DNA from: Thiomonas intermedia | GTDB lineage: Bacteria > Pseudomonadota > Gammaproteobacteria > Burkholderiales > Burkholderiaceae_C | Direction of reading: 5' to 3' | DNA: 64,000 nucleotides | NCBI GenBank assembly: GCA_020722545.1 | Contig: DYKQ01000001.1 | Location: 1-64,000, forward strand | Part shown: in pieces, positions 39,994 to 52,060 of the stretch | How positions within the stretch are numbered: position 1 is the stretch's first letter | Layout: the number at the start of each line of letters is the position of its first letter | Position numbers and translations under genes: made by a program | Notes under the pieces: model-generated | What the model was told of the DNA's origin: nothing | The model's database searches: none | What the model saw: the letters and a program-made list of their open reading frames with translations, nothing else

Positions 39994-40374
39994 TTACTTC
40001 TTGCGCAGGCATTCGCTCATGAATTTTTTACGCTCTTCGCCTTTCATGCCTTTGGCCTTGGCATCTTTGCTGCAGAACGACATTTTCTGCTGTTGGGGGG
40101 TAAGTTTCTTCTCTCCGGCAGCGGCTTTGTGTTCTGCTTTGCGTTCAGGCTTGGCGGCTTCTTTGCTCGCAGGCTTGGCTGTTTCGGCTGTGGCTGCGGG
40201 CTTGCTGGCCAGGCACTCTTTCATGAAGGTCTTGCGGGCCTCGCCGGTCTTGCCGGTGGCTTCCTTGTTGCATTGAGCCATGCGGCTTTGCTGCGGCGCG
40301 CCTTGAGCTTGAGAGAGCGCAGGCAGGGCCATCAGACCCAGGGCGAAACCGAGGGTGGCGAACAGTTTTTTCAT
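39994..40374 (-). CDS. PsiF-repeat protein
   Basis: A 126-residue exported basic protein. The signal peptide ([21 protein letters not shown]) is followed by two PsiF repeats, each with a conserved Cys pair ([20 protein letters not shown] and [20 protein letters not shown]). They are separated by a Lys/Ala-rich linker. PsiF was named as phosphate-starvation-inducible in E. coli; its role is unknown. GGAGGA directly precedes ATGATG, so the second ATG (40374) has the better spacing. Confidence 0.85.
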
Positions 40375-40506
40375 CATTCCTCCAAGTTGTGTTGTGACCG
40401 GACCGCAGCAGGCGGTAGTGCGATCAAGCCGTGCAACGAAAGGTTGCGAACCGGCAATTCATTACACCATAAGGTTGTGCGGGCGCGAAGAACGGCGACA
40501 GACCCA

Positions 40507-46927: not shown

Positions 46928-47737
46928 ATGCAAAACGCAGCAAAAATCTCGCAGCCCGATTGGGCGCTGGCGGTCAAGGTTCCGGTCGTCATCACGCTTT
47001 ACTTCTGGCTGATCAAAATCATGGCCACCACGGTGGGCGAAACCGCCGCAGACTATCTGGCCGTGGATCTGCATCTGGGCCTGGTCGCCACCAGCGCGGT
47101 GATGACCCTCTTGTTCATCGGTGTGCTGACGGCGCAGATGCGCGCCAGCCGTTACGTTCCCTGGCTTTACTGGTTGACGGTGACGCTCATCAGCGTGGTG
47201 GGCACCTTGCTTACCGACAATCTGACCGATCAGTTGGGCGTGCCGCTGCCGGTGAGCACAGCCCTGTTTGCGCTGGCCTTGCTGGCGACGTTTGCGATCT
47301 GGTGGGGTAGCGAGCGTGATCTGTCGATCCACAGCATTGCCACGCCAAAACGAGAAGGGTTTTACTGGGCGACGATTCTGTTCACCTTTGCGCTGGGTAC
47401 TGCCGGAGGCGATCTGGCCGCTGAGCGGCTGCAACTCGGCTATGCCTTGTCGGCCTTGTTGTTTGGCGGCGCCATTGCGCTGACGGCAGCGGCCTACTAC
47501 ATCTTCAAGGTCGGCGCCGTGACCACGTTCTGGATCGCTTATATCCTCACCCGTCCGCTGGGAGCGACCTTGGGGGACTGGTTGTCCAAACCCGGTACTG
47601 AAGGAGGGTTCGGTCTGGGAACCATGGGAACCAGCGCCCTGTTCCTGGTCACGATTCTGGCCCTGGTGATTTACCTCACTGCGACACGGCGAGACCAGTT
47701 GCAGATGAGTTCAGCCCCAAGTTCAACCCTCTCCTGA
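46928..47737 (+). CDS. COG4705-like polytopic membrane protein
   Basis: A 269-residue inner-membrane protein with about eight hydrophobic helices and an internal duplication. The N-terminal half has ITLYFWLIKIMATTVGETAA and the C-terminal half has VTTFWIAYILTRPLGATLGD. The paired TTVGETAADYL and RPLGATLGDWL motifs sit in equivalent positions, a pattern of small transporters. It resembles uncharacterised COG4705 membrane proteins; substrate unknown. It is preceded by a structured leader and its 3' end overlaps the convergent CYTH-CHAD gene by 15 bp. Confidence 0.75.
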   Translation: MQNAAKISQPDWALAVKVPVVITLYFWLIKIMATTVGETAADYLAVDLHLGLVATSAVMTLLFIGVLTAQMRASRYVPWLYWLTVTLISVVGTLLTDNLTDQLGVPLPVSTALFALALLATFAIWWGSERDLSIHSIATPKREGFYWATILFTFALGTAGGDLAAERLQLGYALSALLFGGAIALTAAAYYIFKVGAVTTFWIAYILTRPLGATLGDWLSKPGTEGGFGLGTMGTSALFLVTILALVIYLTATRRDQLQMSSAPSSTLS

Positions 47738-49267
47738 CTTCCTGCGGGCGGCTTGGAGCGCGCGCTGCAAACCGGTGCGGGCCTGCTTGAAGGCATCGTG
47801 TATGGCATGTTCGCCGAACGCGTTGGGCAATGACGGCTGAGTGGTTGGGTCGCTGATGATCCAGCGCGCCAGCCGCAGGGTGTCGAGCGCATTGCCCAGG
47901 TCGGTTTGCAGGACGCTGGTGAGTTTGAGCCAGGCTTTGCCTTCGTCGCCCAGCGACTGGCCGATCCAGGGGGTCAGCCATTCCAGCGCATAACGCAATT
48001 GCTTGGCGCGCAGACGCAGGGCGTGCAGTGCGCTCCAGGGGGCGTCGAGCGGCGTCGCGGCGAAGCCGTCCCAGATGGCCAGCAGTTCGGCCCAGCGCAG
48101 CGGGTGCAAATGCAGGTCGTCGCGGTGAAAGCGCAGCAGACGCCGGGCCAGTTGTTCGGTGGACATCTCGGCGGCAATGATCCGGCCGCCGCTCCAGCAC
48201 TCGGCCCAGCGCGTCTGCGCCAGCAGCACGCGGCCGAAGCGGGCGCTGCGCAGATAGGCCAGCAGGGCTTGAAGACGCGCCTGGCGGCGCTGGGCGAGAC
48301 CGTCGCGCACAGTGTCGGGTGTGCTGGTCTGTTCAAGGCAGACGTCGACGTCGCGCACCGCGCCCAGCAGTTGTCCGGCCCAGCGCCATTCGTCGCGCAG
48401 CCAGCGGCAGGCCGCGCGTTGCGACTTCGGCCCCGTGGTCTGGAACAGCCGCAGCAGCACCCGCAGTCGGCGCAACTGCAGCCGCATCTGGTGCACGGTT
48501 TCGGGCAGGGCCTGGTCGTGCAACAGATCGGCGCCGACGGCAATGACGGCGGTTGCCTGCTGCAGCACGTCGGCCACGGCCTGCCCGCCCTGTTCATGCG
48601 CGGGCAGTTCGCGGGCGAGCGCGGGCAGTTGCAGCGTGGCGGCGCCCGCGGCAATCGCTGCGAGCTGAAGCTTGCTGACGGGTGAGATCAGCAGCGGCAG
48701 GTCTTGCGCCAGGGCCCAGGCGAGGTCGAAAGCGTGGAGCCAATGACCGCTGATGAACTCGATCTCCAGCTCGCTGATCAAGAGGCTGGGCGCGTCTGGG
48801 GTGACGCCGCCCAGCGCCTGTCCGTCATCGAGGCAGACCTCAAGTTGCGAGCCTTCCCAATCGACCCGCCATAGGGTGCGTTGTACCCGTGTGCCGAGCA
48901 CCGCCTGCAACTGGCTGGCGAGGGCATCAAGGTCGCCCAGGCGGGCCAGTGGCGTCTCGCTCAGGCGTTGCAGCGACGCGGCGTCGGGCGTGTCGGCGTC
49001 GATGTCGAACTCCCATTCGCCGCGCGCGAGCTGCAGGCCCTGCGCCGGGCTGCTCTTGAGGGTGAGAATGCGCCGTCCGTCGCCCGTGTGTCGTACCCGC
49101 AGGGCCAGGCCAGCTTGACGCAGGGTGTGCGCTGGGGTGTCGAAGTACCAGGTTTGCAGCGCCTGGACGCGGGGCGGCTGCGCCATTGATTGCAAGACTG
49201 GATGGCGGCGCACGACATCAAACAGGGCGGGATCGAGTCGGAATTTGAGTTCGCGTTCCTGGCTCAT
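47723..49267 (-). CDS. CYTH-CHAD domain protein (inorganic triphosphatase-like)
   Basis: A 514-residue protein. The N-terminal CYTH domain (about 1-200) has the ExExK signature SQERELKFRLDP, a beta-barrel with LRVRHTGDGRRILTLKSS, and LLISELEIEFISG. The C-terminal CHAD domain (about 215-500) is a helical bundle with conserved histidines and arginines (ETVHQMRLQLRRLRVLLRLF, RLRAKQLRYALEWL). CYTH enzymes hydrolyse triphosphate. CHAD domains bind polyphosphate and can target granules, so a role in polyphosphate metabolism is likely. Confidence 0.88.
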   Translation of the reverse strand: MSQERELKFRLDPALFDVVRRHPVLQSMAQPPRVQALQTWYFDTPAHTLRQAGLALRVRHTGDGRRILTLKSSPAQGLQLARGEWEFDIDADTPDAASLQRLSETPLARLGDLDALASQLQAVLGTRVQRTLWRVDWEGSQLEVCLDDGQALGGVTPDAPSLLISELEIEFISGHWLHAFDLAWALAQDLPLLISPVSKLQLAAIAAGAATLQLPALARELPAHEQGGQAVADVLQQATAVIAVGADLLHDQALPETVHQMRLQLRRLRVLLRLFQTTGPKSQRAACRWLRDEWRWAGQLLGAVRDVDVCLEQTSTPDTVRDGLAQRRQARLQALLAYLRSARFGRVLLAQTRWAECWSGGRIIAAEMSTEQLARRLLRFHRDDLHLHPLRWAELLAIWDGFAATPLDAPWSALHALRLRAKQLRYALEWLTPWIGQSLGDEGKAWLKLTSVLQTDLGNALDTLRLARWIISDPTTQPSLPNAFGEHAIHDAFKQARTGLQRALQAARRKSGEG

Positions 49268-49375
49268 GGCGAGGGATTGTTCGAGGGAAGGAGGGTGTCA
49301 TTTGACCTGCTCGCCACGAGTGAAACAAGTCACGGCGTCAAGTGGGTGGCGATATTTTTCGTGACATTCACCAGA

Positions 49376-49381
49376 TTGACA
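49376..49381 (+). promoter_or_regulatory. Candidate -35 box before the PlcP-like gene
   Basis: TTGACA, a perfect -35 hexamer, 25 bp before the annotated ATG. TGACAT also occurs 15 bp upstream. No convincing -10 follows at 16-18 bp, so the transcription start, and perhaps the gene start, may be further downstream. Confidence 0.25.
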
Positions 49382-49405
49382 TATTGAAGCTATGCAATTC
49401 GCGAC

Positions 49406-50356
49406 ATGGTGATCCAAACCCTGTCCCGAATGATGCGCAGCAGTGCCGTGATTCCGCAAGACGGCGCCGCGGCGGGAACCCAGCGCACGGCTGCCCACAT
49501 CGACGCTCTGCAAGCCGGCGGTGAAGGCGAGCCGGAGTTGAAATGGCGCACTCTGTGGCTGTCCGACATTCACCTCGGCACGCGCGACTGCAAGGCGCCG
49601 CAGCTGCTCGAATTTCTGCGGCATTGCAGCGCTGACACCATCTACCTGGTGGGCGACATCATCGACGGCTGGCAGCTCAAGAAAAAGGGCATCTACTGGC
49701 CGCAGCCGCACAACGACGTGGTGCAGAAGCTGTTGCGCAAGGCGCGCAAGGGCACGCGGGTGGTGTTCGTGCCGGGCAACCATGACGAGTTCGCGCGGCC
49801 CTACGACGGGCTGCATTTCGGCGGAATCGAAGTCATCAACCAGGTGCGGCACGTCACCGCCGACGGCCGCACCCTGCTGGTGGTGCACGGCGACCTGTTC
49901 GACAGCGTGGTGCTGTACGCCAAGTGGCTGGCGCACCTGGGCGACGCCGCTTACATGTTCACCCTCAAGCTCAATCGCTGGCTCAATTACGCGCGGCTCA
50001 AACTCGGCCTGCCGTACTGGTCGCTGTCGCAGTTCCTCAAACACAAGGTGAAGGCGGCGGTGAACACCATCTCCAGTTTCGAGACCTTGCTCAGCGAAGA
50101 AGCGCGACGCCAGCAATGCGACGGCGTGGTCTGCGGCCATATTCACCGCGCCGAGCTGCGCAGCGAAGACCGGCAGATCTACGCCAACTGCGGCGACTGG
50201 GTGGAGAGCCTCACCGCGCTGGCCGAAGACTTCGACGGCCGCCTCAAGCTGCTGCACTGGAATGCCGGGCTGCAGGTGCTGACGGAGCTGGCGCCGCAGA
50301 CCGCAACGTCTCCCGCCCCTTTGCATCCCTCCCCCACACAACCCGTCCACGCATGA
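49406..50356 (+). CDS. PlcP-like metallophosphoesterase (UDP-diacylglucosamine hydrolase-like)
   Basis: A 316-residue calcineurin-type phosphoesterase related to LpxH and to the rhizobial phospholipase C PlcP. The metal motifs are all present: SDIHLGT, VGDIIDGW, PGNHDEF, VVHGDLFD and CGHIHRAEL. The segment WLAHLGDAAYMFTLKLNRWLNYARLKLG also fits the PlcP branch. PlcP cleaves phosphatidylcholine-type lipids to diacylglycerol under phosphate limitation. The domain starts at about residue 46, so the ATG at 49406 may be too early. The stop overlaps the next gene (ATGA). Confidence 0.8.
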   Translation: MVIQTLSRMMRSSAVIPQDGAAAGTQRTAAHIDALQAGGEGEPELKWRTLWLSDIHLGTRDCKAPQLLEFLRHCSADTIYLVGDIIDGWQLKKKGIYWPQPHNDVVQKLLRKARKGTRVVFVPGNHDEFARPYDGLHFGGIEVINQVRHVTADGRTLLVVHGDLFDSVVLYAKWLAHLGDAAYMFTLKLNRWLNYARLKLGLPYWSLSQFLKHKVKAAVNTISSFETLLSEEARRQQCDGVVCGHIHRAELRSEDRQIYANCGDWVESLTALAEDFDGRLKLLHWNAGLQVLTELAPQTATSPAPLHPSPTQPVHA

Positions 50357-51471
50357 TCGCTTCCGCTGTCGCTCCCCAAGTGGCCGCCGCGGCCGAAAAG
50401 CCCTGGCCCGCCGCCGCTGGCACGCTGCCGCTGCGCATCCTCATCGTTACCGACGCCTGGGAGCCGCAGGTCAACGGCGTGGTGCGCACCCTCAAGACCA
50501 CCATCGGGCAGCTGCGCGACATGGGGCAGGTGGTCGAGGTGGTGGAGCCGGGCAGTTTTCGCACCATTGCCTGCCCGACCTATCCCGAAATCCGCCTCAG
50601 CCTGTGGCCGCGGTCGCGCATCATGCAGCGGGTGACCGAGTTCATGCCCGACGTGGTGCATGTCGCCACCGAAGGGCCGCTGGGCCAGGCCGCGCGGCGC
50701 ATCGCACGGCGTCTGGACATTCCGCTGACCACGGCGTATCACACCCGCTTTCCCGAATACGTCCAGGCCCGCTTTCGTGTGCCGCTGGGCTGGACTTATG
50801 CCTATCTGCGCCGATTTCACAACGCCGGCCGCGCCGTGCTGGCGCCCACGCAAGTGGTGCAGCGCGATCTGCAAGAACATGGTTTTCGCAATGTGCGGCT
50901 GTGGTCGCGCGGGGTGGATCACCGCATGTTCTACCCGCGCGAAGGTGAACGGCTGGATGGCACGCCGCCCATTTTTCTGTACGTAGGCCGGGTGGCGGTG
51001 GAGAAGAACATCGACGCCTTCCTGCAACTTGATCTGCCGGGCACCAAATGGGTGGTGGGTGAAGGGCCGGAGATGGAGCGCATCCGCAAGCAATACCCCG
51101 GCGTGCGCTTTCTCGGCGTGCTCACGCAGGACGAACTCGCCAAGGTCTATTCCGGCGCCGATGTGTTCGTGTTCCCGAGCAAGACCGACACCTTCGGGCT
51201 GGTGCTGATCGAGGCGATGGCCTGCGGCTGCCCGGTGGCGGCGTTTCCCGTGACCGGCCCGCTGGACGTGATCGGTGAGAGCCCGGCCGGTGCGCTCGAC
51301 AACGACCTCAAGGCCGCCTGCCTGCGCGCCCTGCAGATTCCGCGCAGCGCGGCGCTGGCGCATGCGCGCAAATTCACCTGGGAGGCGGCCTCGCGGCAGT
51401 TTCTCGATCATCTGCGCAAGGCGGTGCGCGAAAGTAGTGCAGCTAATAGTGCGACGCAAACGGCGCACTGA
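50353..51471 (+). CDS. GT4-family glycosyltransferase (Agt/MgtA-like)
   Basis: A 372-residue GT-B glycosyltransferase. The N-terminal ILIVTDAWEPQVNGVVRTLK and ATEGPLGQAARRIARRLDIP, and the C-terminal VGRVAVEKNIDAFLQLDLPG and PSKTDTFGLVLIEAMACGCP (the donor-binding ExxxxxxxE region), fit family 4. It is translationally coupled (ATGA) to the PlcP-like gene. In rhizobia and marine bacteria such pairs convert phospholipid-derived diacylglycerol into glycolipid under low phosphate. Donor and acceptor here are inferred. Confidence 0.82.
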   Translation: MIASAVAPQVAAAAEKPWPAAAGTLPLRILIVTDAWEPQVNGVVRTLKTTIGQLRDMGQVVEVVEPGSFRTIACPTYPEIRLSLWPRSRIMQRVTEFMPDVVHVATEGPLGQAARRIARRLDIPLTTAYHTRFPEYVQARFRVPLGWTYAYLRRFHNAGRAVLAPTQVVQRDLQEHGFRNVRLWSRGVDHRMFYPREGERLDGTPPIFLYVGRVAVEKNIDAFLQLDLPGTKWVVGEGPEMERIRKQYPGVRFLGVLTQDELAKVYSGADVFVFPSKTDTFGLVLIEAMACGCPVAAFPVTGPLDVIGESPAGALDNDLKAACLRALQIPRSAALAHARKFTWEAASRQFLDHLRKAVRESSAANSATQTAH

Positions 51472-51631
51472 GAGGGTGTGAACAAATCCGCCATGTCCGC
51501 TCTTCGCGCCCAAACACCCCCGCTCGGCGTTGCAAATGCGCGCCGTGCCGACGGGCACGGCTGTGCTTTGCGCCTTGATCGGAGGCGTTTGGGCGCGCTG
51601 CTCGGCCACGCCGGATTCATTCACACCCTCT
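51471..51631. repeat. 161-bp imperfect palindrome
   Basis: Two arms of about 79 bp, complementary at roughly four of five positions, around the loop GACG. The outer ends are AGAGGGTGTGAA and TTCACACCCTCT, the middle CGCGCCCAAAC / GTTTGGGCGCG, and the inner GCCGTGCC / GGCACGGC. It contains no credible ORF. It may be a MITE-like element, a cruciform or a structured transcript between the glycosyltransferase and dgkA genes. Confidence 0.8.
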
Positions 51632-51637
51632 GAACCC

Positions 51638-52060
51638 ATGGCCCAGCAGCGCGAACGCGCGCCCCTCCCCAAGCCGCAGGCGGCGCCCAATCCCTACAAA
51701 ACCCGCACCGGGCTTTCGCGCGTGTATCACGCGGGCATCAACTCCATGAGTGGCCTGCGCGCTGCGTGGCAGACCGAGTCGGCGTTTCGCCAGGAGCTCA
51801 CGCTGGCCCTCATCCTGCTGCCGCTGGCGCTGTGGCTCGGGCGCACCTGGACCGAGCGGGCCGTACTCGCAGGCAGCGTGCTGCTGGTGCTCATTGTCGA
51901 GCTGCTCAACACCGCCATCGAGTACACCGTCGATCGCGTCTCGCTGGAGCGACACGATCTGAGCAAGACCGCCAAAGACCTGGGCAGCGCCGCCGTGCTG
52001 CTCACCCTGCTGCTGTGCGTGTTGATCTGGGCGGCTGTGCTGCTGCCGCGCTGGGTCTGA
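51638..52060 (+). CDS. dgkA: Diacylglycerol kinase
   Basis: A 140-residue trimeric inner-membrane kinase phosphorylating diacylglycerol to phosphatidate. Three helices and the signature VELLNTAIEYTVDRVSLERHD followed by LSKTAKDLGSAAVLL are clear. A Pro/Lys-rich N-terminal tail of about 30 residues is longer than in E. coli. The ATG at 51638 was chosen because the upstream part of the ORF lies in the palindrome. Next to the PlcP-like and glycosyltransferase genes it could recycle diacylglycerol. Confidence 0.92.
   Translation: MAQQRERAPLPKPQAAPNPYKTRTGLSRVYHAGINSMSGLRAAWQTESAFRQELTLALILLPLALWLGRTWTERAVLAGSVLLVLIVELLNTAIEYTVDRVSLERHDLSKTAKDLGSAAVLLTLLLCVLIWAAVLLPRWV

Follow-up and report, generated by a model that had tools for sequence, protein, structure and literature searches.

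The locus at positions 49,406 to 52,060 of the window, by which we mean the whole 64,000-nucleotide stretch of DNA that was analyzed, raises the question of whether a predicted phospholipid phosphodiesterase, a glycosyltransferase and a diacylglycerol kinase form one lipid remodeling operon, and what the kinase would contribute to it. The reading that we favor, with a probability of roughly 0.8, is that the locus is a PhoB-controlled PlcP–Agt remodeling operon extended by DgkA, which would serve as a safety valve for diacylglycerol (DAG). The window comes from a Thiomonas-like metagenome-assembled genome (MAG) of 2.41 Mb, which is 87% complete (G000), and the closest named relative is Thiomonas bhubaneswarensis, with 87% identity in plcP. 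The features of the region are as follows:

39994..40377, minus strand: ORF of a PsiF-repeat protein (PF07769, 96 bits)
47723..49267, minus strand: CYTH-CHAD protein (PF01928 and PF05235), divergent, 138 nt from plcP
49365..49382, plus strand: Pho-box-like direct repeat CATTCAC-CAGA-TTGACAT, 23 nt before the plcP start codon
49393..49398, plus strand: putative -10 hexamer TGCAAT, 10 nt past the Pho box and 7 nt before the ATG
49406..50356, plus strand: plcP, predicted PlcP-type LpxH-fold phospholipid phosphodiesterase, 316 aa
50353..51471, plus strand: agt, predicted GT4 diacylglycerol glycosyltransferase, 372 aa
51472..51632, no strand assigned: 161-bp near-palindromic repeat inserted at the agt stop codon, with TGA on each side
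51638..52060, plus strand: dgkA, prokaryotic diacylglycerol kinase, 140 aa

The original prediction described a translationally coupled pair of a PlcP-like phosphoesterase and a GT4 glycosyltransferase, followed by dgkA. The three genes were indeed found intact on the same strand in this order, and plcP and agt overlap in the sequence ATGA; translational coupling of the two is structurally plausible. The CYTH-CHAD gene reported next door is also present, and it adjoins plcP in all 11 plcP-bearing relatives from the genus, while no such neighbor of plcP was detected in T. delicata (L016) or in related MAG loci. Because plcP, agt, dgkA and the CYTH-CHAD gene occur together in 11 out of 11 plcP-bearing genus relatives, this four-gene arrangement is not a matter of chance. 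As for the PsiF-like gene mentioned as lying 9 kb away, an open reading frame does exist at that distance, but a functional tie to the operon was not found. A search of the locus against Rfam returned no RNA family.

The product of the first gene matched the calcineurin-like phosphoesterase family (PF00149) at 47.9 bits, and its set of metal ligands is complete (D54, H56, D84, N125, H161, H245 and H247) and invariant in 28 homologs; H126 is invariant as well. Homologs with 53%–65% identity were found in Bradyrhizobium, Rhodopseudomonas and Magnetospirillum. The comparison with LpxH models gave 43.9 bits (NF003743, cut-off 134) and 36.5 bits (TIGR01854, cut-off 190.35). In the phylogenetic tree, 28 PlcP-like and 15 LpxH proteins were split on one branch with support of 100/100; some LpxH branches are long and the bootstrap was incompletely settled, but the branch that decides the split is very long. 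The metal ligands are common to the esterase and LpxH, while the surrounding conserved residues are different, and the esterase carries the motif PGNHDE where LpxH has HGNRDF, so that the arginine of LpxH is replaced by histidine. A dedicated LpxH scoring above the cut-off is encoded in all 12 genus relatives, and 11 of them carry plcP too. The assignment of the esterase as LpxH was rejected on the basis of the model cut-offs, the tree, the PGNHDE motif and the separate LpxH genes of the relatives. Sequence comparisons thus give good support to a PlcP-type identity of the esterase, as originally predicted, and the motifs of Agt, the gene pairing and the Pho-box architecture agree with it.

It could be argued that the esterase is a divergent form of LpxH that functions in the synthesis of lipid A, and that the glycosyltransferase decorates LPS. 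The nearest PDB sequence and fold neighbors of the esterase are LpxH proteins (Foldseek 8e-11), its AlphaFold model (pLDDT 75) has an LpxH-like fold, and no LpxH above the cut-off was found in the source MAG itself. However, an LpxH-fold PlcP would be expected to have neighbors of this kind, and the helical lid of the model has low confidence, so the substrate was not inferred from it. The missing LpxH is most simply explained by the incompleteness of the MAG, and it was not counted as evidence, because only 87% of the genome is covered and all relatives have LpxH. With the scores far below the LpxH cut-offs, the clean separation in the tree, the loss of the HGNRDF arginine and the presence of both genes in 11 relatives, this explanation is highly improbable.

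The predicted product of agt contains two motifs, GRVAVEKN starting at residue 212 and FPSKTDTFG starting at residue 274, as well as the catalytic residues His130 and Asp279, the latter in place of the usual Glu. Characterized GTcp/Agt enzymes have the motifs GRVAxEKN and FPSxTDTFG, a catalytic His, and an Asp at the position where Glu is usual (PMC8231724). The FPSxTDTFG motif was found in 31 of 50 plcP-adjacent glycosyltransferases, as compared to none of 14 other GT4 genes from the same loci. The plcP–glycosyltransferase pair is widespread across alpha- and betaproteobacteria, and in marine bacteria a glycosyltransferase is the gene most often reported near plcP (PMC4796936). Studies of mutants showed that plcP–agt makes glycolipid in Methylosinus (PMC9239053) and in Pseudomonas (PMC8528852). 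Judged by these features, plcP–agt of the window looks like a typical, already known remodeling pair.

The region upstream of plcP was scored for Pho boxes by counting matches out of 14 to CTGTCAYNNNNCTGTCAY. A plain scan of the window detected no site of at least 12/14, and hence the site before plcP was revealed only by comparison with relatives: when the upstream regions of the genus were aligned, a conserved block emerged just before the gene. In the window this site matches at 10/14, which has a per-position chance of 5e-4 there and is among the weakest scores of the genus, while at the aligned position most genus relatives score 11–12/14 and T. delicata scores 12/14. Its variants include CGGTCAC-GCGC-CTGACAT in several relatives and GTGTCAT-CCCC-TTGTCAC in T. 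delicata, and TGCAAT occupies the -10 place in every aligned locus of the Thiomonas clade. The original statement that there was no clear Pho box has therefore to be revised, since a weak Pho-box-like site is located at a position conserved in the relatives. Sites of at least 11/14 were present within 400 nt upstream of 54 out of 107 plcP loci versus 94 out of 2007 background windows, and in none of 15 lpxH upstream regions. The upstream region of pstS from the source genome reaches 11/14, and PhoB is present.

The spacing between the Pho box and the start codon was also compared among the loci. The data showed that, among 91 loci, the distance from the end of a box of at least 10/14 to an in-frame ATG is 22 nt in 9, 23 nt in 22 and 24 nt in 18, while other offsets have a mean of 1.06 loci; these counts are not independent, as Thiomonas and Bradyrhizobium are over-represented. 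Secondary peaks at offsets of 35 and 46 nt follow in steps of 11, which is the Pho-box period, and a peak at 14 nt corresponds to a second in-frame ATG located 9 nt upstream in Thiomonas. In about half of the plcP loci (L012–L120) the start codon is located 22–24 nt past the Pho box. The same fixed geometry, in which the box is followed after 10 nt by a -10 hexamer and the ATG lies 22–24 nt after the box, occurs in plcP of both alpha- and betaproteobacteria. In known PhoB promoters the -10 element is found about 10 nt after the box, and transcription starts about 7 nt further. When this spacing is considered together with the box-to-ATG distance, a leaderless plcP mRNA is predicted, with transcription probably beginning at the ATG or directly beside it.

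The kinase assignment of the third gene is clear at the family level, with 120.3 bits to PF01219 against a cut-off of 22.3 and a match over nearly the full length of E. coli DgkA structures (~98 bits, 4e-27), and it is the single match of its family in the source genome. In all 11 plcP-bearing genus relatives dgkA is the third gene, after agt, at a distance that is mostly 4–7 nt in those relatives with a projectable start. T. bhubaneswarensis has the gene order of the window as well. Outside of the genus set, the order plcP–glycosyltransferase–dgkA was found in T. delicata (G045, the genome of locus L016) and in genomes G070, G079, G279 and G195, and the order dgkA–plcP–glycosyltransferase in G144 (L193) and G168 (L194), where a Pho-box-like site lies between dgkA and plcP. 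Altogether, dgkA adjoins plcP in 3 of 43 plcP-bearing non-genus relatives and in four further genomes of the phylum sample, and the cases of plcP–dgkA association collapse by kinship to about five families; besides the genus, about four other families have dgkA joined to plcP–agt. We estimate the frequency of chance adjacency at 2–5 in 10,000 per genome, given that dgkA is mostly single copy and the genomes are several Mb in size; by this estimate it would be expected in well under one of those genomes. A looser linkage was noticed in family f71 (G131, G151, G202, G271 and G274), in which dgkA and plcP are 11–15 kb apart on the same contig. In most Burkholderiales dgkA is located elsewhere, and therefore an adjacent kinase is not needed for the pathway. 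The conserved order, the tight spacing within the genus and the repeated association of plcP with dgkA in unrelated families support the coupling of dgkA to the operon. A literature search, which covered open-access papers, found no description of a plcP–agt–dgkA operon.

Other possible sources of DAG were also considered. MdoG marks the synthesis of osmoregulated glucans, a process that supplies E. coli DgkA with DAG. Of 13 Thiomonas genomes, 4 contain MdoG, while the N-domain of EptA/B was detected in none. Because MdoG is mostly, and the EptA/B N-domain wholly, absent, PlcP appears to be the most obvious source of DAG in most Thiomonas genomes, in a comparison that covered MdoG and EptA/B; phosphatidate phosphatases would be another kind of source. 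In the complete relative G006 (G006:C2), a region with paired MdoG genes occurs twice, whereas MdoG genes are missing from most Thiomonas genomes; glucan synthesis in Thiomonas is patchy and possibly mobile.

The gap between agt and dgkA is 166 nt in the window and in one relative (G012), and it is explained by an insertion, because G006 has only 4 nt there. The inserted 161-bp repeat, which the original prediction did not mention, is predicted to fold as RNA into a hairpin of -105.5 kcal/mol (z -7.7), and it has 10 full-length copies in the same genome and more across the genus (L125–L143, L203–L212). Among 27 copies, TGA precedes the repeat in 21 and follows it in 22; in 18 the repeat directly adjoins the stop codon of a reading frame at least 75 codons long, and for 24 a start codon that opens a reading frame is located no more than 80 nt away. 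Judged by this pattern, the repeat seems to insert at stop codons where the next gene is close. In one genome (G010, L142) the same repeat is located directly behind dgkA, not before it. The hairpin between agt and dgkA was ruled out as a classical intrinsic terminator, as it is not followed by a U-run; attenuation, an influence on mRNA stability or no effect at all remain, and the repeat may uncouple the expression of the kinase in the window strain.

These observations could be combined into the following mechanism. At low phosphate, the PhoB promoter would drive transcription from the plcP ATG or next to it, giving a leaderless mRNA. PlcP would then cut membrane glycerophospholipids into DAG and a phosphorylated head group. 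The DAG would be glycosylated by Agt with a UDP-sugar to phosphorus-free glycolipids. DAG left over by Agt would be phosphorylated by DgkA with ATP to phosphatidate, and so returned to phospholipid synthesis. DgkA would thus act as a DAG safety valve, which could also serve the return path once phosphate is available again. The steps assigned to PlcP and Agt are proposed from their family membership, while that of DgkA is proposed from its position and from the lack of the two other DAG sources.

Two different roles of the kinase have to be weighed against this mechanism. In one of them, plcP–agt is the remodeling pair, and dgkA is merely a downstream housekeeping gene with its own expression, which recycles DAG from other reactions. 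The location of dgkA elsewhere in most relatives, the hairpin before it in the window and its place upstream of the Pho box in G144 and G168 are all consistent with this explanation, but the 4–7 nt spacing kept in most of the genus and the association with plcP in several families argue against it, as does the scarcity of other DAG sources of the kinds compared, so it seems unlikely, if still deserving real weight. In the other one, the operon is a true reversible switch, in which DgkA is turned off or starved of substrate at low phosphate, and brings DAG back to phospholipid when phosphate returns. The gene content permits such a switch, no second kinase of the DgkA family was found in the genome, and the hairpin in the window strain could separate the expression of dgkA. 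On the other hand, the placement of dgkA 4–7 nt behind agt in the genus suggests co-induction rather than counter-regulation, and there is no glycolipid hydrolase gene in the operon, which makes the switch quite unlikely. Co-induction of the lipase and the kinase would alone amount to a futile ATP cycle, and therefore a DAG safety valve has to be rated no less likely than a reversible switch, and it fits at least equally well. What speaks against the safety-valve operon itself is the weakness of the window Pho box and the strong hairpin that divides agt from dgkA in this strain, where dgkA could have its own promoter.

The operon extends PlcP–Agt remodeling to Thiomonas, many relatives of which are represented here by metagenome assemblies, and it offers a testable answer to the question of the fate of the DAG which is released by PlcP and cannot be used by Agt. 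The rigid distance from the Pho box to the start codon offers a sharper genomic marker of plcP under phosphate control than the mere occurrence of plcP, and it leads to the prediction that a phosphate-starvation gene is translated from a leaderless mRNA. More tentatively, as a generalization that is possible rather than probable, DgkA could be a recurrent third core enzyme of the PlcP–Agt pathway, setting the branch at which DAG goes to either glycolipid or phosphatidate, with alpha- and betaproteobacterial plcP leaderless and driven by a PhoB promoter of fixed geometry.

The arrangement of the window resembles the plcP–agt systems of Methylosinus trichosporium OB3b, Pelagibacter HTCC7211, Agrobacterium and Pseudomonas aeruginosa (PA3219–PA3218) in having an LpxH-fold phosphodiesterase gene directly upstream of a GT4 agt, the GRVAxEKN and FPSxTDTFG motifs, and an upstream Pho box (PMC9239053, PMC8231724, PMC8528852, PMC4796936). 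It differs from them in dgkA as the third gene and in the fixed box-to-start distance, from which a leaderless mRNA is predicted. LpxH has a common fold and metal-ligand pattern with PlcP of the window, but it belongs to another clade, has other conserved residues and is encoded by a separate gene in the genus. In Pseudomonas putida BIRD-1, PlcP and DagK were enriched together upon phosphate depletion and called Pho-dependent; a shared operon was not described there, while in Thiomonas the kinase gene directly follows plcP–agt (PMC5082522). The mcr-3–dgkA pair is similar in that dgkA is tied to an enzyme family releasing DAG from phospholipid, but there the DAG producer is a phosphoethanolamine transferase, and the pair is plasmid-borne and not known to be phosphate-regulated (PMC7559476). 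Hence, plcP–agt represents a known pathway, to which the kinase in the third place and the conserved phosphate-starvation promoter are probably a lineage-limited addition.
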